The notes beneath the pieces were generated by a model. That model ran no database searches. It was given only the letters and a program-made list of their open reading frames with translations, and was not told where the DNA came from. Shown in pieces: positions 6,345 to 20,144 of a stretch of 33,782 nucleotides of DNA. Within the stretch, counting starts at the first letter, position 1, and each line of letters starts with the position of its first letter. Made by a program: the position numbers and the translations under genes. The stretch is from Candidatus Poribacteria bacterium (GTDB lineage: Bacteria > Poribacteria > WGA-4E > WGA-3G), in assembly GCA_022822215.1 (NCBI GenBank), contig JAJECD010000346.1:1-33782 (forward strand), in the 5' to 3' direction.

Positions 6345-7261
6345 CCTCAAAACTCATCTGCCTCCTCGGTCCTACAGCGGTTGGCAAAACAGAGATAGCC
6401 ATTCAACTTGCCCAACGCCTCAACGCCGAAATTGTCTCCCTTGATTCCCGCCAAATCTATCGGCAGATGGACATCGGCACCGCCAAGCCGACTCCTGAAG
6501 AACGGCAGGCAGCACGGCATCACCTCATAGATTGTCTGGACATTTCCCAACCCTTCTCCGTTGCTGACTATCAACGCCTCGCAGACACTGCAATCACTGA
6601 CATCCGAAACAGAGGCAAGCGCGTACTGCTTGCCGGTGGTGCGGGTCTCTACTTCCGAGCGGTTGTTGATGGTTTGTTTGAAGGTCCAGGGGCGGACCCG
6701 GCGCGCCGTGAACGACTTGAGCAGGAAGCCGCGCAACACGGCGTTGATGCTCTCCACGAACGGCTCCGCGCTTGTGATCCAGTGTCTGCTGACCGAATCC
6801 ACCCGAATAACATCGTCCGGGTTGTGCGTGCCTTAGAAGTCTATGAGTTAACAGGTACGCCTCTGTCCGAACTCCAACAGCAGTGGCAGCCAGAGAAACA
6901 ACGCTATCCGTTTATCGCCTTCTGTCTGACGATGCCGCGGGCACGCCTGTATCGTCGTATTGAGCAGCGTGTCGATGTGATGCTTGCGAATGGATTGATC
7001 GCCGAAGTTGAAGCGTTATTAGCCGCTGGTTATTCCCGTGATACCGTTGCCCTCCAAAGTTTCGGCTATAGAGAGTTGATCGCGTATCTGGATGGGGAGT
7101 GTACGTATATGGAAGCCGTCTCCCAGCTAAAACAAAATACCCGTCGTTTCGCCAAACGGCAACTCACATGGTTCCGCAAAGACACGCGTCTTGAATGGAT
7201 AGATCGGGAATCGACACCAGATGTCGTTGGGAATATTTTGGAGAGAATTGGGGATACTTAG
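6341..7261 (+). CDS. miaA: tRNA dimethylallyltransferase MiaA
   Basis: MiaA transfers a dimethylallyl group from DMAPP to A37 next to the anticodon of UNN-reading tRNAs. The P-loop GPTAVGKT is at residues 10-17, followed by the family motif DSRQIY (35-40) and GTAKP. The central DRIHPNNIVRVVRALEV region and C-terminal RRFAKRQLTWFRKD are typical. The ATG at 6341 is preferred over an upstream in-frame start at 6317 because it begins the normal MiaA N terminus and overlaps the mnmA stop as ATGA, which suggests translational coupling. The length of 306 residues is normal. Confidence 0.97.
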   Translation: MTSKLICLLGPTAVGKTEIAIQLAQRLNAEIVSLDSRQIYRQMDIGTAKPTPEERQAARHHLIDCLDISQPFSVADYQRLADTAITDIRNRGKRVLLAGGAGLYFRAVVDGLFEGPGADPARRERLEQEAAQHGVDALHERLRACDPVSADRIHPNNIVRVVRALEVYELTGTPLSELQQQWQPEKQRYPFIAFCLTMPRARLYRRIEQRVDVMLANGLIAEVEALLAAGYSRDTVALQSFGYRELIAYLDGECTYMEAVSQLKQNTRRFAKRQLTWFRKDTRLEWIDRESTPDVVGNILERIGDT

Positions 7262-7328
7262 CGTTGACTTCATCGCCTACATGTGCTACACTCAATTGCG
7301 AACGCGTTGCACAAAAAGGAGAAAAAAA

Positions 7329-8942
7329 ATGAGACGTTTTGGGACACAGGGTCCCGTTAATCCTCAAGAGCACTATGTTGTGTCGCGCCCGAAGGAGATT
7401 GCCGATTTTATCAAACGTGTTGAAGAAGGGAGATATATTGTCCTCTTTGCCCCGCGTCAAACGGGCAAAACGACCTTCTTTCAACGTGCTTTAGATACAC
7501 TTGCTGTCGAAAAATCGGAATATCTCCCGATTTCGCTTAATTTTGACGTATACAAAAATACAAGTGTAGTCAATTTTTACGAGAATCTTTGTGAAGATAT
7601 CCGTGAGGAAATTCACAACACATACCAGCGACGGGGCATTCTGATTTCTGAGGCACTAAGCCAACTGTTGAGAAACGCACAACTCACAGACCACCACGCA
7701 ATGCGTAGGTTTTTTAGAAACCTTGCACGTCTGTTAAGCCCCCAAAGGTGCATCATTATCATTGACGAATTTGATGGCATCCCACAAGCTGCTCTGAGCG
7801 ATTTTCTTCACACACTCCGTCATATCTACATTGCAGGTAAACCGCGATGCCCCCACAGCGTTGGCATCATTGGTGTTAAGAGTATTGCGCAGCTCAACTA
7901 CGACCGATCTATCTCCCCCTTCAATATCCAAGACGACTTCCATCTCCCCAACTTTACGCTTGAACAAGTCCAGGAACTGTTTGGACAATATACCGCCGAA
8001 GTCGGACAAGCCTTTGTTCCAGAGGTTATAGCATCTATCCATAAGCAGACTGCTGGGCAGCCCGTCCTTGTCAACCGATTCGCCCAGATCCTTACCGAAG
8101 AACTGGACATTCCGAAGACTGAACCTATTACAATGGCACACTTTTCAGAGGCACACGATCAGCTCCTTCATGGACAGAATACTAACATTGAGCATCTGAC
8201 AACCAACATCCGCAGAAACTCGCGCTTTGAAAGCGTTCTCATGCGCATTATGGCACGTGATGAAGGTGTGGACTTCAATATGGACGATGACATTATCAGT
8301 GAACTTGCAACCTATGGCGTCATCAAAAGAGCTCCTGATGGTATGTGCGAGATTCTCAACCCAATTTATCTTTACCGCATCATGAGAACTTTTAAACCGA
8401 TCGTGAATGGGCTGGAACATGAGTACCTTCCCAGCGGTACGAGTGAAGAATTTCCCAATTATATTACACCCACCGGACGCATTGATATGGAGGCGTTACT
8501 TGACAACTTTCGAGATTTCATTGCCCGCGCAGGTTTTAGAATTCTGCAAGTGCCAGATACGCCACAAGAGTCCGTAGGCAGGCACCTCCTCCTCGCCTAT
8601 CTTGATCAGTTTGTTAAAATTGTCGGCGGCATAATGTATCTTGAGGTTCCCACTGGTCGGGGTCGGATGGACCTCATCATCGTACACAACCAGCGAAAAT
8701 ACGTTGTTGAAACAAAGGTTTGGCGCGGGGACATTCGCTATCAGTCGGGTAAAAAGCAGCTCGCAGTATATCTCAAATCTGAGGGGATGGCGGAAGGATA
8801 TTACATCGTCTTCGATCATCGGCAGGACCCAGAGCCGCGGGTAGAAGCGGAAACGATAGAGGATTTGACGGTTCGGAGTTACGTTATCCCCGTGATGCAA
8901 TATCCACCTTCAGAAATTTCCCATACCCCTAACACGCCTTGA
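7329..8942 (+). CDS. AAA-like ATPase fused to a PD-(D/E)XK nuclease-type domain
   Basis: The 537-residue product has an N-terminal AAA-like ATPase domain (AAA_35-like) with Walker A at 41-49 (APRQTGKTT) and Walker B at 141-148 (CIIIIDEFDG). A middle winged-helix-like part (about 290-360) follows. The C-terminal nuclease-type core has D448 (GRGRMD) and E461-T-K463 (VVETKVWRG). AGGAG about 10 bases before the ATG at 7329 decides the start; 36 upstream codons are open but overlap the end of miaA. The fusion is widespread in environmental bacteria, but its role is not firmly known; DNA-directed defence or mobile-element functions are plausible. It lies only 67 bases after miaA but has its own ribosome site. 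Confidence 0.8.
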   Translation: MRRFGTQGPVNPQEHYVVSRPKEIADFIKRVEEGRYIVLFAPRQTGKTTFFQRALDTLAVEKSEYLPISLNFDVYKNTSVVNFYENLCEDIREEIHNTYQRRGILISEALSQLLRNAQLTDHHAMRRFFRNLARLLSPQRCIIIIDEFDGIPQAALSDFLHTLRHIYIAGKPRCPHSVGIIGVKSIAQLNYDRSISPFNIQDDFHLPNFTLEQVQELFGQYTAEVGQAFVPEVIASIHKQTAGQPVLVNRFAQILTEELDIPKTEPITMAHFSEAHDQLLHGQNTNIEHLTTNIRRNSRFESVLMRIMARDEGVDFNMDDDIISELATYGVIKRAPDGMCEILNPIYLYRIMRTFKPIVNGLEHEYLPSGTSEEFPNYITPTGRIDMEALLDNFRDFIARAGFRILQVPDTPQESVGRHLLLAYLDQFVKIVGGIMYLEVPTGRGRMDLIIVHNQRKYVVETKVWRGDIRYQSGKKQLAVYLKSEGMAEGYYIVFDHRQDPEPRVEAETIEDLTVRSYVIPVMQYPPSEISHTPNTP

Positions 8943-9638: not shown

Positions 9639-11900
9639 ATGAACCAAACCGACCTTATCCACATCGGAGAACAAAAAGGCTATATTCAACTCCTTAACGA
9701 AGGAACAACAATCCACTACATCACTCCCAATAAAAAATACAGATTTACCGACCCCGAAGAACAAGTCCGTGCAAGATTTTACGTCGAGTTAATCGAGCAT
9801 TTCCAATACTCCCAAAACCGAATAGATTTAGAAGTCCAGGTTCCGCGCAGAACGCCTTCCGATCTCGCCGATATTGTCGTCTTTCAAGATGATGACAAGA
9901 AAGATCCCTTCATTGTGGTTGAATGCAAAAAGGACGGAATCTCTGAGGCAGAATTCAAGCAAGCGATTGAGCAGGCTTTTGGCAACTGTAACTCTTTAGG
10001 CGGATATTACACCGCTGTCATTGCTGGTAATACGCGGCGTTCTTTTGATGTCAAGAACTATAAGCCGGGTGAACGTTCCGAAAATATCATCGCCGATCCA
10101 CCTATTGGATACGGCAAAGTTCAGGAATGGCGATTTCTGAAAGGTGTCCCGAATTCGGAACTTACTGTCATCGAAAGGAGCGATCTCATCCGCGTGCTTG
10201 AGAAATGCCACGATACGCTTTGGCAAGGCGGAAAACTTGCACCAACCGACGCGTTTGATGAACTCGCCAAAATTCTCTTTATCAAAATCCGAGATGAAAA
10301 GAAGGCAAGACGGGACGGTGAACCTTACGATTTTCAGATCAAAACGCGTGAAAAACCAAAATCCGTTGCGAATCGCATTAACGCACTCTATCAGGAAGCA
10401 AAAGCACAAGACCCGGAAGTCTTTACTGAAAATATTGAAGTTGATGCAAGTCTCCTATTTTCCGTTGTCAATCATTTGCAGGGGATTAGTCTCAATCAAA
10501 CCGATTTGGACGTGAAGGGTGTTGCCTTTGAACGATTCTTAGGTAATTTTTTCAAAGGCGAGATTGGACAGTTTTTCACACCGCGTGAAGTGGTTGAGTT
10601 CATGGTTGATATGGTTACACCCCACCATGAAAATTTAATCCTTGATCCCGCCTGCGGTTCGGGCGGTTTTTTGTTGCATGCCATGGATTACATCCGAAAA
10701 CAGGCATCTGACTACTACGAGGAGGGAAGCCGCGAACACTATACCCACTGGCACGATTTTGCCGAGAAGCGACTCTTCGGAATTGAAATTAATGACTCAA
10801 TTGCCCGCGTTGCCAAGATGAACATGATTATCCACGATGATGGGCATAGCAACGTCATTAGCAACGATGCCCTCGTCGATTTCGACAACCTCTACAACCA
10901 GCACAGGGAGTTTGAAGAAGATAAATTTGATGTAATCCTTACCAATCCACCTTTCGGAGCATCCATCAAACAATCCGAATTACCGTATCTTAGAAATTAC
11001 GAACTCAGCAAAGGAAATGCCTCTCAAAAGACTGAAATTCTGTTTCTTGAACGCTGTTTCGATTTCCTTAAGTGGGAAACCGGAAAACTTGCGATTATTC
11101 TACCCGATGGTATCTTGACCAATTCCTCACTACAATACGTCCGTGATTACATTGAACGCCACTTTCAAATCCTCGCTGTCGTCTCACTGCCACAGATTGC
11201 CTTCTCACATTACGGTGCGGGTGTGAAAACGTCCATCTTATTTCTCCGAAAGTTTTCAAAACAGGAGTATGAACGCTATCAGGCCGCCATCAATCAAATT
11301 ACGAAAAGGAACGAAGCGGTCTATATGCCTCAGATCACGACACTTGAGGATGAGCGTAAAGCACTTATTGCGAAAGGTTCTCCAAGACAGATAATTACGA
11401 TAGAAACTTTTAGACCAAGATTCCAAGAGAGCTTAGACAATATTGATACCTTAAATCAGAAACTTGACAAAGCACCAACGAAAAAGGTTCAAACGCTCCG
11501 CTCCTTTTTCTTCCCAGAAATGGAGCCTACACCTATCACAGAATTTGAATTGTTTGACACGCAAACCGCACGGGCGGAACTTAAGAAACAGACAGGCGAG
11601 TTGAACGCATTGGAGAAAGAATACAAAGCAGCGTTTAAAGGAGCAGTCGAACCGGAGTGGGAGAGCCAAATCAAGTCGGAATACAAAGAAAAAATTGACG
11701 CTGTTAAAGAGGAATGGGCAGATAAGAACGCAGCGGACATCCTCGAATGGGTTCGAGAAAACGCCAATCATCCCATCTTTATGGCAATCGCTGAACGTAT
11801 CGGCTACGACGCAACCGGACGCAAAGACTCAATTAATGACCTTGACATGATTTATGAAGAATATCAAAAGTTCACCGAAAACCCAGATTTTTTCGGGTAA
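9639..11900 (+). CDS. hsdM: N6-adenine methyltransferase (HsdM type) with N-terminal nuclease-like domain
   Basis: The 753-residue product is much longer than a normal HsdM (about 500). Residues 1-140 resemble the HsdR N-terminal nuclease fold (HSDR_N_2 type), with a PD-(D/E)XK core of D78 (SDLADIVVF) and E95-C-K97 (VVECKK). From about 190 comes the HsdM part: FTPREVVEFM (313-322), SAM-binding motif DPACGSGGF (336-344) and catalytic NPPFG (436-440), so it should methylate adenine. The C terminus (about 640-700) is charged and helical, coiled-coil-like. With hsdS next to it and no separate hsdR in the window, this may be a self-contained cut-and-methylate subunit, comparable with BcgI-type systems. 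Cleavage activity is inferred. Confidence 0.9.
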   Translation: MNQTDLIHIGEQKGYIQLLNEGTTIHYITPNKKYRFTDPEEQVRARFYVELIEHFQYSQNRIDLEVQVPRRTPSDLADIVVFQDDDKKDPFIVVECKKDGISEAEFKQAIEQAFGNCNSLGGYYTAVIAGNTRRSFDVKNYKPGERSENIIADPPIGYGKVQEWRFLKGVPNSELTVIERSDLIRVLEKCHDTLWQGGKLAPTDAFDELAKILFIKIRDEKKARRDGEPYDFQIKTREKPKSVANRINALYQEAKAQDPEVFTENIEVDASLLFSVVNHLQGISLNQTDLDVKGVAFERFLGNFFKGEIGQFFTPREVVEFMVDMVTPHHENLILDPACGSGGFLLHAMDYIRKQASDYYEEGSREHYTHWHDFAEKRLFGIEINDSIARVAKMNMIIHDDGHSNVISNDALVDFDNLYNQHREFEEDKFDVILTNPPFGASIKQSELPYLRNYELSKGNASQKTEILFLERCFDFLKWETGKLAIILPDGILTNSSLQYVRDYIERHFQILAVVSLPQIAFSHYGAGVKTSILFLRKFSKQEYERYQAAINQITKRNEAVYMPQITTLEDERKALIAKGSPRQIITIETFRPRFQESLDNIDTLNQKLDKAPTKKVQTLRSFFFPEMEPTPITEFELFDTQTARAELKKQTGELNALEKEYKAAFKGAVEPEWESQIKSEYKEKIDAVKEEWADKNAADILEWVRENANHPIFMAIAERIGYDATGRKDSINDLDMIYEEYQKFTENPDFFG

Positions 11901-12052: not shown

Positions 12053-13282
12053 ATGTACGGTGCGAATGAGATAGCAGTAAACGGCGATCCTCAAACGGAT
12101 GTGCGATATATTCGGATTACCGACATTGATGATCATGGAAACCTCCGAGATGATGATTGGAAAACAGCAAAGAGAATTGACAAAAAATATGCTCTTGCTC
12201 GGAATGATCTTTTGTTTGCCAGAAGTGGAACAGTAGGTAAAGCATTCATCCACAAAAGAGAGGATGGAGAAGCTATTTTTGCGGGATATTTGATTCGTTT
12301 CAGATTTGATGAAAAGCGAATAAATCCTCACTTTGTGTTTTACTATACTCTCTTAAGTCGATACATGCTTTGGGTCCGGGCAATACAAAGACCATCAGTA
12401 CAAGCTAATATCAACTCAAAAGAATTTAAGGCGTTTGAAATCCCTCTCCCGCCCCCAAGTATTCAAAATCACATCGTTACCATTATGCGATCCGCCTCTA
12501 CTGAGAAAAAGCAGAAAGAGCAAGAAGCAGCCGCGCTTTTAGATTCAATTGATGATTATGTGTTGACGGAGTTGGGAATTGAGATGCCACAAGAGAAAGA
12601 AAATAGCATTAAAAACCGTGTTTTTACTGCAACGCTCGGCGAAGTTTCTGGACGACGATTTGATCCAGAAATATATTATCAGGTTTACTCGTTGCATACG
12701 AAGTCTTACCCGATGGAAAGATTTCAAGATTGTGTTCTCATTAACCCATCGACTTCCTTTGAGGGATATGAATTGGACACGAATGTGACCTTTGTTCCAA
12801 TGGAAAAAGTTTCAGCGAAATATGGAGAGGCTGATCTATCTCTATGCAAGATGGTCGCCGAGGCAAAAGGATATACGAGGTTTAGAGACAACGATCTGAT
12901 TTGGGCAAAAATCACGCCGTGTATGGAAAATGGGAAGTCTGCTGTTGTTGATAATTTGGAAGGTGGGGTAGGATGTGGTTCAACTGAATTTCACGTTTTC
13001 CGGGCATTGGAAGGGATAAATATTCACTATATTCACGCCCTGTTACGTATGAAATCTTTGCGGGAGCATGCCGTGCTGTATTTCACAGGTTCCGCTGGAC
13101 AGCAGAGAGTTTCGAGTGAGTTCTTCAAAGAGTTAATGGTTCCGAAACCATCACTTGAAAAACAAACTGAGATTGCCAATTATATCACTCATGCTCGTAA
13201 TCAGGCTAAACAACTACAACAGGAAGCCGATGCTATTGTAGAGCAGGCGAAAGAGAGAGTTGAGCACATTTTGTTGCAATAG
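12053..13282 (+). CDS. hsdS: Type I-like specificity subunit HsdS; true start unclear
   Basis: HsdS reads the target sequence for the methyltransferase/nuclease. Two half-repeats are visible. TRD1 runs from RYIRITDIDDHGN through GYLIRFRFDE to FEIPLPPPSIQ. TRD2 starts at RRFDPEIYY and ends in LMVPKPSLEKQTEI, each with a following helical stretch. The first ATG in frame is 12053 (409 residues). However, homology-like sequence continues upstream in the same frame (GRLDPNYI and YPLVPLGSLLTEPP), and the frame is open back to 11858. No ATG, GTG or TTG occurs in that stretch; only a CTG at 11957 and some ATT codons do. The protein may start at a rare codon, or an older start may have been lost when the hairpin at 11901-11941 arose. 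Confidence 0.85.
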   Translation: MYGANEIAVNGDPQTDVRYIRITDIDDHGNLRDDDWKTAKRIDKKYALARNDLLFARSGTVGKAFIHKREDGEAIFAGYLIRFRFDEKRINPHFVFYYTLLSRYMLWVRAIQRPSVQANINSKEFKAFEIPLPPPSIQNHIVTIMRSASTEKKQKEQEAAALLDSIDDYVLTELGIEMPQEKENSIKNRVFTATLGEVSGRRFDPEIYYQVYSLHTKSYPMERFQDCVLINPSTSFEGYELDTNVTFVPMEKVSAKYGEADLSLCKMVAEAKGYTRFRDNDLIWAKITPCMENGKSAVVDNLEGGVGCGSTEFHVFRALEGINIHYIHALLRMKSLREHAVLYFTGSAGQQRVSSEFFKELMVPKPSLEKQTEIANYITHARNQAKQLQQEADAIVEQAKERVEHILLQ

Positions 13283-13657: not shown

Positions 13658-13686
13658 TTGACAAATGACTTAAAAGCTGCTATAAT
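13658..13686 (+). promoter_or_regulatory. Consensus promoter of the TIR gene pair
   Basis: TTGACA (13658-13663), 17 bases, then TATAAT (13681-13686), a perfect sigma-70 match. The leader to the ATG at 13769 is about 75 bases, with GGAGG just before the start. Confidence 0.8.
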
Positions 13687-13768: not shown

Positions 13769-14260
13769 ATGAACGCAGAAAAACGATCTTTGTCTGAACC
13801 AACCGTTACAAGTAGCAGCGAAGTGTTCATCGTGCATGGACATGATCGGGCGGTTAAATCCGAAGTTGCTCGATTTGTAGACAATTCAGGGTTAGAAGCG
13901 GTTATACTTGATGAAAAACCCGGTGGCGGACTAACGATTATTGAGAAATTTGAGAAATACGCGAATAATGCAGCTTTTGCGATTGTCTTGCTTACACCTG
14001 ATGATGTTGGGGCCTCAAAAGATAAAAGGGACGAACTCAAACCCCGAGCGCGTCAGAATGTTATCTTTGAAATTGGTTATTTCTTTAAAGGGTTGGGTCG
14101 CGGTCGAGTTTGTGCTATGTCTAAAGAAGAAGTGGAATTCCCATCCGATCTTAATGGAGTAAGTTATGTTTTCCTTGATCCTAACTCTGGCTGGAAACTA
14201 ACATTATTGCAGGAAATGAAAGAAGCTGGACTTCCTGTTGATGGTAGTAAATTGGTGTAG
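13769..14260 (+). CDS. Stand-alone TIR-like protein (CAP12/Pycsar-effector type)
   Basis: The 163-residue product is almost wholly one TIR-like nucleotide-binding domain of the PF10137 type. Recognisable motifs are VFIVHGHD (19-26), GLEAVILDEKP (41-51), GLTIIEKFEKY (54-64) with E59 as the probable catalytic glutamate, LLTPDD (74-79), and RARQNVIFEIGYFFKGLGR (93-111). Family members act as NAD+-degrading effectors in antiphage systems such as Pycsar and CBASS, killing or arresting infected cells. No cyclase gene or second-messenger sensor domain is visible here. AGGAGG lies 7-8 bases before the ATG. It is followed 130 bases later by a second TIR-like gene with a long repeat region, and lies just after the restriction system. 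NADase activity is inferred from family membership. Confidence 0.88.
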   Translation: MNAEKRSLSEPTVTSSSEVFIVHGHDRAVKSEVARFVDNSGLEAVILDEKPGGGLTIIEKFEKYANNAAFAIVLLTPDDVGASKDKRDELKPRARQNVIFEIGYFFKGLGRGRVCAMSKEEVEFPSDLNGVSYVFLDPNSGWKLTLLQEMKEAGLPVDGSKLV

Positions 14261-14390
14261 AAATGGAGGAAAGCTTGACACTTACTTACACTGGGCTGAA
14301 TAAATCTTGTAGAATAAGCTGCTTAAGTTGTCAGCCTGATTACGGGTTGCGAAGCATAAGTCAAATATCTTGAAAGTGGAGGAAAGGTTA

Positions 14391-14570
14391 ATGAATAGTT
14401 GGAGAGATCCTTTTAGGAATTCCTATATGGCTGAGTTAAATAGTTGGAGAGATCCTTTTAGGAATTCCTATATGGCTGAGTTGAATAGTTGGAGAGATCC
14501 TTTTAGGAATTCCTATGCAGCTGAATTAAATGGTTGGAGAGATCCTTTTAGGAATTCCTATACAGCTGAG
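14391..14570 (+). repeat. Four tandem 45-bp repeats inside the TIR gene
   Basis: Copies at 14391-14435, 14436-14480, 14481-14525 and 14526-14570 differ at only a few bases each. Being 45 bp long they add or remove 15 residues without breaking the frame. Such near-identity points to recent expansion by slippage or recombination. Confidence 0.95.
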
Positions 14571-15683
14571 CTGAATCGAATGGTAAATCCTATCAGAGAA
14601 CTTCGTCCCCAAATGGAACTAACAAGGGATTCCGTGAAGGGCTTTCATGAACACGTGGCTGAGCTGAATCGAATGGTAAATCCTATCAGGGAACTTCATA
14701 CCGAAAAAAATTACATAGATCAAATAAGGCATGTGGTGGATGATTCCAGGAGATTTCACGTAGAATTGGGGCGAGCAGTAAATCCTATCAGAGATTCCCG
14801 TGTCCACATGGATGAACTGAGGCGACTAAGTGATCCGGTCAAAGATTATCGTGTCCGGATGGACGAAATGGAGCGTGTGGTAAATCCTATCAGGGAACTT
14901 TATACCGAAAAAAATTACATAGATCAAATAAGGCATGTGGTGGATGATTCCAGGAGATTTCACGTAGAATTAGGGCGAGCAGTAAATCCTATCAGAGAAC
15001 TTCGCGTCCAAATGGAACTAGCGAAGGATCCCTTTAAAGAGTTTCGTGACCAAATGGGGCAATTCGATAAATCTATTGTTAATTTCACTCGTATTTTTGA
15101 CGAAATAGTAGAGTCTGCCATCCCTTTTACTTCCTCCCGCTCTGTTGGTATTGATGTATTCATTGAACCTGAGTTCCCTGAGATAGGTAAACAGCCAGTC
15201 AGAATTCACTATCCAGATAATTCTGGCCGTTCTTTCGGCGAGAAAGTGTTTATCGTGTGCGGGGGGGACGAAGGAGCAAAACAAACCTTGGCTAGATGGA
15301 TCGAAAAATTAGGCTTAGAGGCGGTTATAATTAACGAAAAACCAAGCGGAGCACTAACGAGGATTGAGAAGGTTGAAAGGTACACGGATGATATAACCTT
15401 CACAGTTGCTCTGCTTACTCCTGACGATGAGGGTAAACCAAAGAGCGAATTAGGTAAATCCAACTCCCGCGCAAGCCAGGATGTTATCTTGCAACTTGGT
15501 CTTCTGATCGGTAAGTACGGTCGTGACCAGATATGCTTCCTCTACAAAGGAGAATTAGAATTGCCGTCAAGTATGAATGGCATAAACCTCATACCGATGG
15601 ATGCTAATGGTGGATGGGTACTAAATTTAATACAAGAAATAGAAGACGCGGGGCTGTCCATTGATATAAATAAGGCAATATGA
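14391..15683 (+). CDS. Repeat-array protein with C-terminal TIR-like domain
   Basis: The 430-residue product has two parts. Residues 1 to about 223 are some 14 tandem units of 15-17 residues. Units 1-4 are nearly identical (SWRDPFRNSYMAEL); later ones carry the core NPIREL or DPxKxxR and end in E-L or D-E-L. A linker follows, then a TIR-like domain at about 284-430, paralogous to the preceding protein: KVFIVCGGDEG, GLEAVIINEKP, TRIEKVERY, LLTPDDEGK and SRASQDVILQLG. The catalytic-type Glu in RIEKVE is kept, but HGHD has become CGGD and the FEIG glutamate is a glutamine, so activity may be altered. The start at 14391 has GGAGG 8 bases upstream; an upstream ATG at 14370 lacks this. The array may drive oligomerisation or sense a trigger (inference). 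Confidence 0.85.
   Translation: MNSWRDPFRNSYMAELNSWRDPFRNSYMAELNSWRDPFRNSYAAELNGWRDPFRNSYTAELNRMVNPIRELRPQMELTRDSVKGFHEHVAELNRMVNPIRELHTEKNYIDQIRHVVDDSRRFHVELGRAVNPIRDSRVHMDELRRLSDPVKDYRVRMDEMERVVNPIRELYTEKNYIDQIRHVVDDSRRFHVELGRAVNPIRELRVQMELAKDPFKEFRDQMGQFDKSIVNFTRIFDEIVESAIPFTSSRSVGIDVFIEPEFPEIGKQPVRIHYPDNSGRSFGEKVFIVCGGDEGAKQTLARWIEKLGLEAVIINEKPSGALTRIEKVERYTDDITFTVALLTPDDEGKPKSELGKSNSRASQDVILQLGLLIGKYGRDQICFLYKGELELPSSMNGINLIPMDANGGWVLNLIQEIEDAGLSIDINKAI
14675..14998 (+). repeat. Duplicated 120-bp block inside the TIR gene
   Basis: The segment 14675-14794 recurs at 14879-14998 (offset 204) with very few changes. Both encode the stretch VNPIREL, TEKNYIDQIRHVVDDSRRF and HVELGRAVNPIR. This is a second layer of duplication on top of the short units. 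Confidence 0.9.
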
Positions 15684-16300: not shown

Positions 16301-19093
16301 TCATTTACCTCGTTTTTCTGTAATTCCTTGCTCTTCGCAATATTCCCGAATAATCGGCAAAAAAGCATCAGCATATTTTTCACATTTCGCAGGACTTACG
16401 CGATCAATCTGCATAAACGCTTCTTCAGTTTGCGGAAAATAAGTCGCCATCTCTTTCAGGGTCTTGTCCCAGAAGATGACAAACGCCGAAACCCCTTCCT
16501 CCTCAGCAATCGTTTTCCGCTTCTCTCGAAGTCGCTCAAAAAGCTCCAAGTCGTATTCATTCGGTTCCGGAGAGGTTGTTTCAGAAGTATCTGGGATGTC
16601 AGTTCTGTTCTCTCCTGAATCTGTTTCCTGTTTCTTGAAGTGTTTACGGATAATCGGCAAAAAGACATCAACGTATTTTTCACATTTCGTGGGGCCCACA
16701 CCAGGCATCTGCTTAAAGGATTCTTCAGATGTCGGAAAATAGGTCGCCATCGCTTGCAGTGCTGTATCGTGAAAAACTTCGTAAGGTAGTACGTCCGCCA
16801 CCTCAGCGATCTTGTCTCGTTCAGTCCGAAGTAATTCAAAGAGTTTCGGAGAATATTCAGGCGATACTTCGGATACCGTTCGGTTTGCCGACTCCACCGA
16901 AAATCCCCAAAATTGATCGCCTCCGTTAAGCACTCCCCAACCTTTTTCTGTCAAGCGGAGACTGCCGTGTCGTGCCTCGCGTTCAAGGAGTTTGTGTTGG
17001 AGAAATTGAAGAGACAGATGTCGCCATTCTGATTTGCTGTAATCTGTGCCAATCCCGTGTGTGGAAAGCCGGTCATGTCCGTTCTCAATAATCTTTTTCC
17101 GTTGTGAACCCCGTAGGACATCAATAATATAGGCTTCTCCAAACATCTGTTTTGTCCGAACGACACAAGAGAAGAATTTTTGTGCCAGAGTCGTCAGGTC
17201 AATCCGTTCCGTTTCCGACTTGCAGCAGTTGTCACACATGCCACAATTATCGTGCTCGTACTGTTCTCCGAAGTAGGCTAACAATACTTTTCGACGGCAT
17301 GCGAGTGAAGTTGCCCACGAAACAAGCGTCTGTGATCGTTCTTGTCGTCCTTCCCTTTCGGATGGTGCTCCTTGTTCAATAAAGTGGTTGATAGTGTCTA
17401 CGTCCCCATAACTGAATAGCAGTAGACAGTCTGCGGGAAGCCCATCACGCCCGCTGCGGCCAATCTCCTGATAGTAGGATTCCGGCTCCTTCGGCAACCC
17501 AGCGTGTAATACAAAACGGACATCCGCTTTATCAATACCCATCCCGAAAGCGATTGTAGCGACGATGACCTGAATATCCCCGTTGATGAAAGCGTCCTGA
17601 TTGTGTTTACGGGTTGCATCATCCAGCTCTCCATGATACGGAAGTACAGAAATCCGTCTGGCAGTTAGATCCCGGCACAATGATTTAACTTGTTTTATCG
17701 TTTGACAATAGATAATACCGGATTCTTGGCGATGCTTATAAAGAAACGCAAGGGTCTGATCAAGCAACTCAATCTTCGGTTCAACAGCAATAAAGAGGTT
17801 TTTCCGGTCAAAACTGCCTATGAACTCGCTTCCCTCATCAAATTTAAGCAACTTTTTGATGTCCTTTTGAACGCGGGGAGTCGCAGTTGCTGTTAAGGCA
17901 ACACAAACAGCACTTTGAAATCGCTCCCGAATGGAAACCAGTTGTCGGTATTCCGGACGAAAATCGTGTCCCCACTCCGAAATACAATGTGCTTCATCAA
18001 TCGCGAGGCAGGCGACATCTGATTCATCAAGCATCAGAAGTATTTCAGATCGGACGAGCGTTTCAGGGGCAACGTAAAGAAGTTTCATTTTCCCCTGTTT
18101 GACACGCTGCATTATCGTTTTCTGTTCTGAATAGTTGAGAGTGCTGTTGAGGAAGGCTGCGTGGATGCTTCTGTTTTGCAGTTGCATCACCTGATCCTGC
18201 ATGAGCGAAATCAGCGGCGAGACAACTACCGTCATGCCATCAAAAATGAGTGCAGGCAATTGATAACAGAGCGACTTGCCACCGCCTGTTGGTAACACCA
18301 CGAGGGCATCTTGCTTTTTGAGGATGTGGTCAATGATGTCCTTCTGGAATAGACGAAACGCTTCATGGCCGAACACGTTTTGGAGAATCTCTAACGGGTT
18401 TTGTAGAGGCGTTGGGTGTGGGCGCGGTTTTTCTTCATCAAGTGGTTTTTCTTCTTCCTGTTTTCCAGCTTCGAGGAACCACCCGGAGAGTTGCGCGTAG
18501 TGTCGTTCTTCAGCATCGGGTTCGTCTTTCGGTCGCCATCGATGTGCTAACGATACACGTAGGAGTGTTCCAGCAGGGATTGTCTCAACCGGTTCTTGGA
18601 AACCGACGAAAGTGAGCGTGCAACTACCATTTTCGGTAGCGTAGCGATACCGTATGCGTCTGCCTTCTGTATCGCGGATGAGCGGCTGATCCGGTCTCCA
18701 AAACGTTGTACTGTAGTTCGGTACATCATCCCCGGTAGAAATGTAAAGCGAGCCGTTACCTGTGGTTTTCAATAAGCCTTCATAGAGTTCTTGGGGAGAC
18801 CCAGTTTTCGGTGGCATTAAGAGTTCAATAGCACTCACTAAGTCTTTCGGAGCTTTCGCGGGGTGTAGAAGCCTCTTTTTGTGAACAACGATATTTTCGT
18901 TATGTGGTGGAATTAGTGAAATTTCAGGTTTAGCCGCTATCTCCCAGATTTCACCGACGTTATATTCTCGGTTCGCACCGTCATGCGGATCAGCGTTAAA
19001 TGGAATGAGTCGAACACTTTTCCCTGTCTCCGTAATGCCACCGATGCATGCCCCACCACCCATCCGAGTTTTCGCAACAATAAGTACTCTCAC
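16301..19093 (-). CDS. RecQ-family DNA helicase with extra N-terminal domain and two HRDC domains
   Basis: The 930-residue product is far longer than housekeeping RecQ (about 610). Residues 1 to about 205 form an extra domain (RVLIVAKTRMGGGACIGGI, then VGEIWEI) that resembles the dual-OB (DuOB) domain. The helicase core has PTGGGKS (268-274), DEAH (366-369), the RecQ aromatic loop SEWGHDFRPEY, and GFGM-type motif VI as QEIGRSGRDG. The zinc site follows (CRRK and CGMCDNCC), then a winged helix and two HRDC domains, each with the pattern MATYFP...C-EKY-D-FLPIIR. It unwinds DNA 3'-5' by family rule. The start codon is GTG, overlapping the stop of the upstream DUF488 gene as GTGA. This points to translational coupling and a joint role. 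Confidence 0.9.
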   Translation of the reverse strand: MRVLIVAKTRMGGGACIGGITETGKSVRLIPFNADPHDGANREYNVGEIWEIAAKPEISLIPPHNENIVVHKKRLLHPAKAPKDLVSAIELLMPPKTGSPQELYEGLLKTTGNGSLYISTGDDVPNYSTTFWRPDQPLIRDTEGRRIRYRYATENGSCTLTFVGFQEPVETIPAGTLLRVSLAHRWRPKDEPDAEERHYAQLSGWFLEAGKQEEEKPLDEEKPRPHPTPLQNPLEILQNVFGHEAFRLFQKDIIDHILKKQDALVVLPTGGGKSLCYQLPALIFDGMTVVVSPLISLMQDQVMQLQNRSIHAAFLNSTLNYSEQKTIMQRVKQGKMKLLYVAPETLVRSEILLMLDESDVACLAIDEAHCISEWGHDFRPEYRQLVSIRERFQSAVCVALTATATPRVQKDIKKLLKFDEGSEFIGSFDRKNLFIAVEPKIELLDQTLAFLYKHRQESGIIYCQTIKQVKSLCRDLTARRISVLPYHGELDDATRKHNQDAFINGDIQVIVATIAFGMGIDKADVRFVLHAGLPKEPESYYQEIGRSGRDGLPADCLLLFSYGDVDTINHFIEQGAPSEREGRQERSQTLVSWATSLACRRKVLLAYFGEQYEHDNCGMCDNCCKSETERIDLTTLAQKFFSCVVRTKQMFGEAYIIDVLRGSQRKKIIENGHDRLSTHGIGTDYSKSEWRHLSLQFLQHKLLEREARHGSLRLTEKGWGVLNGGDQFWGFSVESANRTVSEVSPEYSPKLFELLRTERDKIAEVADVLPYEVFHDTALQAMATYFPTSEESFKQMPGVGPTKCEKYVDVFLPIIRKHFKKQETDSGENRTDIPDTSETTSPEPNEYDLELFERLREKRKTIAEEEGVSAFVIFWDKTLKEMATYFPQTEEAFMQIDRVSPAKCEKYADAFLPIIREYCEEQGITEKRGK

Positions 19094-19578
19094 GGTAAAA
19101 TATCTTCGACCTCCAAATTAAATGTTTTCGCTAACGTATCCGCTACCAATGAGCGGTGACATGCTTCAGGGGCAGTTTCCACACAAAAGAGCGCAACGAC
19201 TTTGGTATCGGATTCCAGTTCATCCAAAAGACTTTGCGGTTCAAACGCAGTGAGGCATTCGGTGTGGTAGGCTTCGATAAATGCTTCTCCCAGAGCAGTG
19301 CGTTTTCGTTTAGCGGTTTTCGTCGCTTTGTCTGCTGCTGCTTGCTTTTCTCGAACGGCTCTTGTTGGTCCCAAGTCTTTGCGATGAATGTATCGGATAC
19401 CGAGTTCTGCAAGGCGTGCTTGCAGTCGCATACTGTTGGCGAATGCATAAGTTGCACCGCGGACACCACGGCGACTACGGATATCGCAGAATGTGTCAAC
19501 CGCAGCGTCGCATAAAGCCTGAAAAAAACTGGACTCGTCGAATCCGTACACGCCAATGGTAACAATTTTGATTTGCAT
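19090..19578 (-). CDS. DUF488 protein, second gene of the recQ operon
   Basis: The 162-residue product shows the DUF488 layout: a TIGVYGF-like first strand, DIRSRRG in the early loop, GIRYIHRKDLG, and the C-terminal Cys-His site FCVETAPEACHRSLVAD (C-x6-7-CHR). DUF488 proteins have no settled function; the conserved Cys, His and Arg suggest a catalytic or phosphate-binding pocket. It starts 11 bases after the first DUF488 gene ends and overlaps recQ by 4 bases, so the three genes are expressed together. It differs from its neighbour by a basic insert at about residues 75-95 (KAAADK, TKTAKRKR-like). Confidence 0.88.
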   Translation of the reverse strand: MQIKIVTIGVYGFDESSFFQALCDAAVDTFCDIRSRRGVRGATYAFANSMRLQARLAELGIRYIHRKDLGPTRAVREKQAAADKATKTAKRKRTALGEAFIEAYHTECLTAFEPQSLLDELESDTKVVALFCVETAPEACHRSLVADTLAKTFNLEVEDILP

Positions 19579-19589
19579 AGTGGATTAAA

Positions 19590-20144
19590 TTAAGGGTATT
19601 TTTTTCGAGAATGAAATGTCTCGTCACCAAACATCGACAACTGCCCGCCCGTCAGCCGTTCAATGACCTGTGCCTGCGTCAATTGCTCACTATTTTCGTC
19701 GATATGCATGACCGCTATATCTTCATTCGTGAGGGTTACACCGATAAGTTTACAACGGTGGCATTCTTCCGGTTTCCCCTCGCTGCACATCAGAACAATG
19801 GATTGCTGTTGTGAGAAGGCAGTCCGAAGGCGTTGGATACCAGACTGGTAGGACTCCGTGGCTTTAACCTTTTCATAATCGACTTTCCCGTTGACGTAGC
19901 ACGCTTCATCGTCCGGTCTACCACCGAGTGTATCCCCCATGAAGATATAGCGGATCCCGTGCTGTTCCAGTGTATTTGCGAGTGGTGCTTTCGAGAATTC
20001 CGGTTTGTAGCGAGAGTAGGGTGCTGAACGAACATCAATGAGATAAGCAATCTTGTGGGCGTGTAGTAACGCAATGAGTTCCTCTATCGAACGGCTCCCA
20101 TAGCCTATCGTGTAAATTGGAGTGAGGGCGGATGAGTGTTCCAT
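19590..20144 (-). CDS. DUF488 protein, first gene of the recQ operon
   Basis: The 184-residue product is a full-length DUF488 protein: IYTIGYGSRSIEEL at the N terminus, LIDVRSAPYSRYKPEFSK, HGIRYIFMGDTLGGRP, and MCSEGKPEECHRCKLIG carrying the C-x-CHR site. The C-terminal tail is QLSMFGDE and basic residues. It is distantly paralogous to the next gene. No clear Shine-Dalgarno precedes the ATG. Being first, it sets transcription for the operon, but no promoter stands out upstream. A joint role with the RecQ helicase in DNA repair or defence is inferred from the operon only. Confidence 0.88.
   Translation of the reverse strand: MEHSSALTPIYTIGYGSRSIEELIALLHAHKIAYLIDVRSAPYSRYKPEFSKAPLANTLEQHGIRYIFMGDTLGGRPDDEACYVNGKVDYEKVKATESYQSGIQRLRTAFSQQQSIVLMCSEGKPEECHRCKLIGVTLTNEDIAVMHIDENSEQLTQAQVIERLTGGQLSMFGDETFHSRKKYP

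Follow-up and report, generated by a model that had tools for sequence, protein, structure and literature searches.

A bare TIR domain protein beside a repeat-array protein with a degenerate TIR domain in Poribacteria, suggesting a two-protein defence switch

Two adjacent genes on a contig from Poribacteria, a phylum known mainly from marine sponges, encode a bare TIR domain protein that keeps a complete NADase site and a longer protein in which a helical repeat array precedes a TIR domain that has lost this site. This suggests a defence switch made of two proteins, with cutting by the first under the control of the second. In the reading that we prefer, to which we assign a probability of about 0.5, the bare TIR would be an NADase and the degenerate TIR protein its controller, acting as a sensor, scaffold or inhibitor. 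The window referred to below is the whole stretch of DNA analysed (33,782 nucleotides), and the coordinates of its features and of related loci are collected in Table 1.

Table 1. Features of the window and of related TIR loci (L numbers).
Feature	Location	Strand	Details
P0001, bare PF10137 TIR domain protein, predicted NADase	13769..14260	+	163 aa; ATG start; AGGAGG ribosome site
P0002, array-TIR protein	14391..15683	+	430 aa: helical repeat array, disordered linker, degenerate TIR
Repeat array of P0002	14391..15110	+	14-15 units, mostly 14-17 residues; long amphipathic helices predicted
Pseudo-TIR domain of P0002 (residues 284-430)	15240..15680	+	PF10137 E=5e-26; fold match SfSTING 7un8
Putative sigma-70-type promoter	13658..13686	+	TTGACA-17-TATAAT, extended -10; 12/12 consensus match
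Fused HSDR_N nuclease-like and N6_Mtase subunit	9639..11900	+	PF13588 6e-14; PF02384 2e-42
Restriction specificity subunit, HsdS type	12053..13282	+	PF01420 4e-21
Bare TIR subfamily mostly without D110	L033:879-1436, L035:6642-7157, L039:2197-2706		
Bare TIR subfamily mostly without D110	L041:7295-7816, L045:7411-7887, L052:4995-5519 (-)		
TIR(s)-Mod-Res, Poribacteria	L036, L039, L041-L044, L053, L055, L059, L064, L068-L070, L073		
Mod-TIR-Res, other phyla	L105, L112, L119, L120, L128, L142		

The pair stands after a fused HSDR_N-N6_Mtase gene, the layout of which appears to be BcgI-like, and a specificity gene, with a gap of 487 bp between the specificity gene and the pair and one of 130 bp between the bare TIR gene and the array gene. 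The dedicated consensus promoter reported in the original prediction is real as sequence, matching at all 12 positions with a TG before the second hexamer, and is presumably used by the host; a 12/12 match also lies 5' of five other Poribacteria TIR loci. For the array protein the ATG at 14391, with GGAGG/AGGAAAGG directly 5', is preferred over the TTG at 14370 as the start. These two are the only PF10137 genes found in the assembly, which is about 84% complete. Elsewhere in the window, an AAA_35-type ATPase with a weak C-terminal match to a NERD/PD-(D/E)XK nuclease (7221-8942, +) lies directly 5' of the restriction genes, and at 16301-20144 (-) two DUF488 genes come after the gene for a RecQ-type helicase that has a dual-OB (DuOB) domain at its N-terminus; the protein of the second DUF488 gene matches the PADLOC candidate PDC-M45B (E=1.5e-54). 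The helicase and DUF488 genes are possibly another conflict system.

That a bare TIR is followed by a paralogous TIR behind repeats was confirmed with PF10137, the CAP12/Pycsar-type TIR domain (curated cut-off 24.7 bits), which matches the bare protein with 128.1 bits (E=2e-37) and residues 285-404 of the array protein with 91.4 bits (E=5e-26). Both also match PDC-S35 of PADLOC (E=2e-64 and E=4e-48, respectively). The two domains share 44% identity and fall on separate tree branches; a recent duplication of the neighbouring gene was rejected on these grounds, and the low identity marks them as old paralogs rather than recent local duplicates. AlphaFold predicts the TIR domain of the array protein with a pLDDT of mostly 83-96, and SfSTING and TIR-STING lead its fold matches, the best PDB match being 7un8 (E=6e-6).

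In SfSTING, the NADase site is formed by R78, N80 and the catalytic E84, together with D110 contributed by the dimer mate (PMC9402430). This site was mapped by counting along the HMMER alignment to 7un8, where an offset of 8 residues fits all four positions and places them at the R, N, E and D of the motifs RARQNVIFE and PSD. In the bare TIR these are all retained (R95, N97, E101 and D127), making it a probable NAD-cutting immune enzyme. In the array protein they are replaced by S362, D364, Q368 and S394, and the motif VHGHD has become VCGGD. The E84 column holds glutamate in all 118 non-degenerate domains, which come from many phyla. With S, D, Q and S at the catalytic and NAD-contact residues, the array protein is not classed as an NADase, and its TIR looks catalytically dead, a pseudo-enzyme. 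However, the loss of E84 is not by itself absolute proof of inactivity, since a preprint reports that Dictyostelium TirC E162A, mutated at the glutamate of a related TIR, retained NAD+ cleavage in the presence of a crowding agent (PMC13142454). Other parts of the domain are conserved: the helix-C face that packs the dimer in SfSTING (F83, F85, L87 and L89) reads L, L, L and I in the array protein, and is therefore still hydrophobic, and the BB-loop motif EKPxG is retained. This pattern is what would be expected of a domain kept for binding rather than for catalysis.

One alternative is that the array gene is a degenerating paralog without a function, in which the active site has drifted and the repeats have grown by slippage. 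The loss of every active-site residue, the long branch (0.82), the nearly identical and hence slippage-prone DNA repeats and the broken TIR copies at two other Poribacteria loci (L047 and L049) would all fit such decay, which we nevertheless regard as very unlikely. The gene is open over 430 codons with its repeats in frame, and the core positions G291, T343, D346, Q363 and W409 are intact. Moreover, the changes are concentrated on the active site, as 15 of 49 conserved columns are altered and the four active-site columns are all among them (p=0.006). Selection on pseudo-TIR domains related to that of the window protein, which itself has no close relative, is purifying and as strong as on the intact partner (dN/dS of 0.23 and 0.27 for the pseudo-TIRs, and 0.23 for the partner).

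The array covers residues 1 to about 240 of the second protein, some 225 residues in length, with unit cores DPFRNSY and NPIREL. Of the description in the original prediction (about 14 units of 15-17 residues), the number of units stands at 14-15, but their lengths are mostly 14-17 residues and two places parse as a pair of 20+14. Self-identity is maximal at offsets of 68, 15 and 34, and the hydrophobic period is 3.4, with a power of 14.7 against a 95% shuffle maximum of 7.5; these self-identity peaks, and a period signal above that of the shuffles, show that the array is not due to chance. The DPFRNSY unit occurs in four near-identical copies of 45 bp (3.9 copies with 93% matches in TRF, 14394-14570) and a block of 45 codons recurs at a distance of 68 codons with a DNA identity of 93%, which points to a recent expansion of the array through in-frame duplication. 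AlphaFold2 places six helices of 31-49 residues within residues 7-249, followed by a disordered linker at about residues 250-280, although the pLDDT of the array block is only 43-74 and the packing of the helices is of low confidence. A right-handed coiled coil of 15-residue repeats was considered because the first four units have hydrophobic residues in a 4-4-4-3 spacing, but it was not adopted because the array as a whole peaks at 3.4.

The array was said to be unlike known types, and indeed no family in Pfam, NCBIfam, PADLOC or the PDB matched it; against known repeat families (TPR, HEAT, pentapeptide, LRR and others) it gave only sub-threshold coiled-coil noise. Further carriers, in contrast, did not come to light, the sequence of the window array being found in no other protein. 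Candidate relatives elsewhere are weak matches of 25-34% identity, and the two inspected were rejected as unrelated, one (L162) being a coiled-coil plus nuclease-like protein and the other (L163) matching through a leucine-rich-repeat region. No relatives of the array were found on viral contigs, and among the best plasmid and phage matches listed for the array protein only the TIR half is matched. The architecture itself is not unique, as the order of predicted helices, disordered linker and TIR seen in the window protein is also that of a second array protein, encoded at L081 7175-8158 and, as the same gene, at L053 7466-8449. In all, clear tandem arrays are present in two Poribacteria TIR proteins besides that of the window, and further ones carry coiled-coil-like or proline-rich N-termini at the position of the array. 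Different short tandem arrays accompany intact TIR domains at L053:7427-8452 (17-residue units around ESVRSSFAELSRP) and L073:5047-5937 (-) (units of about 18 residues around FDRMGRHAAALLEERVGH).

Degenerate TIR domains recur in Poribacteria. A search of all 85 available genomes of the phylum identified them in four more (G042, G039, G023 and G050), behind a coiled-coil-like or proline-rich N-terminus. The pairing thus recurs in other genomes: in three of the four, an intact TIR gene adjoins the degenerate one directly, while in the fourth the contig ends and synteny with G042 would put the intact TIR on the next contig. All five degenerate TIRs group together in the tree (support 99/91), and a single origin is plausible. 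When the active-site columns are removed the other four still group (99/92), but the window protein joins them at only 93/46, so that the degenerate TIRs may represent separate losses. The N-terminal part is under almost no constraint when G042 and G039 are compared (dN/dS 0.85; TIR versus N-terminal part, p=0.003). A separate and well-supported clade fuses a helical-repeat N-terminus to an intact TIR, with 17-residue units in G014, units of about 18 residues in G024 and shorter ones in the others; where the locus is whole (G014, G019 and G006), two bare TIR genes precede the fused gene, which is the last of the three.

Together, these observations underlie our preferred reading, in which the two genes would divide between them the work of a TIR-based module for abortive infection. 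Its NADase would be the bare TIR. The array protein would be a pseudo-enzyme that has kept the TIR fold and the hydrophobic helix-C pairing surface while losing the residues for NAD binding and catalysis, its array oligomerising and/or binding a phage product. In uninfected cells its TIR domain would hold the bare TIR in check, and on a trigger the array protein would allow or drive the packed state that TIRs of this type need for NAD+ cleavage, CAP12-type TIR NADases being switched on by assembly (PMC9402430; PMC13142454). The original prediction proposed the array as sensor or oligomerisation platform and the bare TIR as enzyme, which gains from the loss of the entire NADase site in the array TIR, although the roles are still read from sequence. 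The sequences show how the two proteins are built, whereas NAD+ cleavage by the bare TIR, contact between the partners, the sense in which one controls the other, what triggers the switch and a role against phage are inferred.

By its sequence, the array protein may be either an activator or a restrainer. Because its TIR has lost D110 as well as E84, a simple 1:1 heterodimer with the bare TIR would have no complete site, and restraint, or scaffolding through another face, is therefore favoured. The same feature, with a helix-C face that is still hydrophobic, would suit an immunity-type inhibitor, in which the array protein is a dominant-negative partner that forms dead heterodimers in a toxin-antitoxin-like manner and the array serves stability or localisation rather than sensing. 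The great differences between the N-terminal parts of the relatives are also consistent with this. We consider it unlikely that inhibition is all there is, given that the putative inhibitor gene lies downstream in the window, after a 130-bp gap, that recent in-frame growth suggests that the array itself matters, and that the separate clade fuses its repeat N-terminus to an intact TIR.

Loss of active-site residues is seen more widely among the tandem TIR genes of the phylum. Of 44 Poribacteria TIR loci, 22 have either two or three TIR ORFs, including a few that are broken, and in one subfamily of bare TIRs D110 is lost in 11 of 15 members while E84 is kept in all. Members of this subfamily are usually second in the tandem, and a subunit that depends on the aspartate of its mate would be a natural candidate for a heterodimer. 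A more distant TIR-like domain (HIFIGHGRS..., ARENVIHEAG) occurs beside or fused behind a typical PF10137 TIR at L046:7934-8755 and L048:5687-6646 (-), and a single ORF at L048 holds two TIR-like domains.

The neighbouring restriction system named in the original prediction is present as the HSDR_N-N6_Mtase and HsdS-type genes, but the link to restriction is wider than this, as the usual partner of the relatives is a type III Mod-Res operon. Downstream sequence is long enough at 39 Poribacteria TIR loci, and at 20 of these a co-directional type III Mod gene (14 intact and 6 fragments) lies directly 3' of the TIR gene, often overlapping it by a few bases, and Res is next in most of the intact cases. 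At six loci in other phyla (Desulfurellaceae, Gammaproteobacteria, Entotheonella, Nitrospira, Caldilineaceae and Bryobacterales), a large Mod-like gene adjoins the TIR upstream; on the downstream side, five of these loci have Res and the sixth has Res fragments. As the gene orders differ, this suggests that the link between TIR and type III systems arose more than once. It has a bearing on a further reading, in which the TIR effectors are a fail-safe that kills when restriction is blocked or overwhelmed and the array-TIR senses the restriction complex or its failure. Both these arrangements and the restriction locus preceding the window pair speak for such a role, yet we consider it unlikely. 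In the window, the pair has its own promoter, a 487-bp gap to the specificity gene and no type III restriction genes beside it. Moreover, 19 of the 39 loci lack an adjacent Mod, some of them only through broken or shifted arrangements, the link is absent from most loci of other phyla, and Poribacteria are rich in methylase genes, each of six genomes sampled having 9-43 matches to PF01555. The fail-safe, the inhibitor and our preferred controller reading overlap in part.

Already known are TIRs of this family, their role as NADase effectors and loci with several TIRs. A dead TIR on a repeat array beside a bare TIR was not found in the literature searched, which leaves out most subscription journals, and this negative is weak evidence for the novelty of the dead array-bearing partner. 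A broader picture, which is tentative and has the odds somewhat against it, is that of a bacterial enzyme/pseudo-enzyme pair resembling the sensor-helper pairs of plant immunity, in which a fast-changing, repeat-expanding helical sensor with a dead TIR would license a bare NADase. The pair would then be a branch of a Poribacteria tandem-TIR family with specialised paralogs (intact, without the mate-donated Asp, and fully dead) that has been repeatedly wired into restriction-modification operons. TIR NADases share their active site between two subunits and are activated by assembly, and a natural pair in which one subunit has lost its catalytic contacts and kept the pairing surface would separate 'assemble' from 'cut', so that one could ask directly if a pseudo-TIR licenses or restrains a TIR enzyme in bacteria. 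In addition, the association of PF10137 with type III operons provides a specific hypothesis for the trigger of PDC-S35, a common orphan defence candidate.

PDC-S35, a single-gene PF10137 TIR-like family listed in PADLOC as a phage-defence candidate, has the same TIR domain and is the best PADLOC match of both window proteins. However, its models describe single proteins 231-278 aa long in which an N-terminal region of about 75-125 aa precedes the TIR, whereas the bare TIR of the window has no such region. The second window protein has a repeat array and a dead TIR, and it aligns over its N-terminal side to one model only (PDLC05004). Genes of this domain family are widespread cargo, matching more than 1,100 records of plasmids (for example L167, Klebsiella plasmid NZ_MW911670.1) and four of phages; among the best matches listed, the plasmid genes are annotated only as nucleotide-binding protein, and in phage ON470582.1 (L168) the TIR gene adjoins a DNA polymerase gene.

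CAP12 or TIR-STING of CBASS (SfSTING) and PycTIR of Pycsar share the PF10137-type TIR and provide the closest solved fold. In contrast to these systems, the window pair is without a STING, SAVED or cyclic-nucleotide sensor; neither protein has a Pfam match to a second-messenger sensor domain (SAVED, STING, cyclic-nucleotide or transmembrane). The statement that no cyclase gene is nearby agrees with our scan, which found neither a cyclase gene nor a cyclic-nucleotide sensor among the window proteins from 1.2 to 26.3 kb (the stretch 26.7-33.8 kb lies outside it). Thoeris is known to have several ThsB TIR genes in one locus, and the pair resembles such loci in having multiple TIR paralogs. However, Thoeris uses another TIR family (PF13676 TIR_2 stays below the cut-off in the window proteins), and the adjacent proteins scanned gave no SIR2, SLOG or Macro match that would indicate a ThsA-like partner. 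Swarozyc, of the DUF4062 type and linked to the phage portal (PMC13174449), and SpbK, which acts with the phage protein YonE (PMC12847820), are TIR or TIR-like NADases that belong to other TIR families, with no DUF4062 match in the window proteins, and a pseudo-TIR second gene is not described for them in the literature searched. Nevertheless, for both of them a structural protein of the phage is the trigger or the binding partner, and they offer a model for what the array could do as a possible phage sensor.
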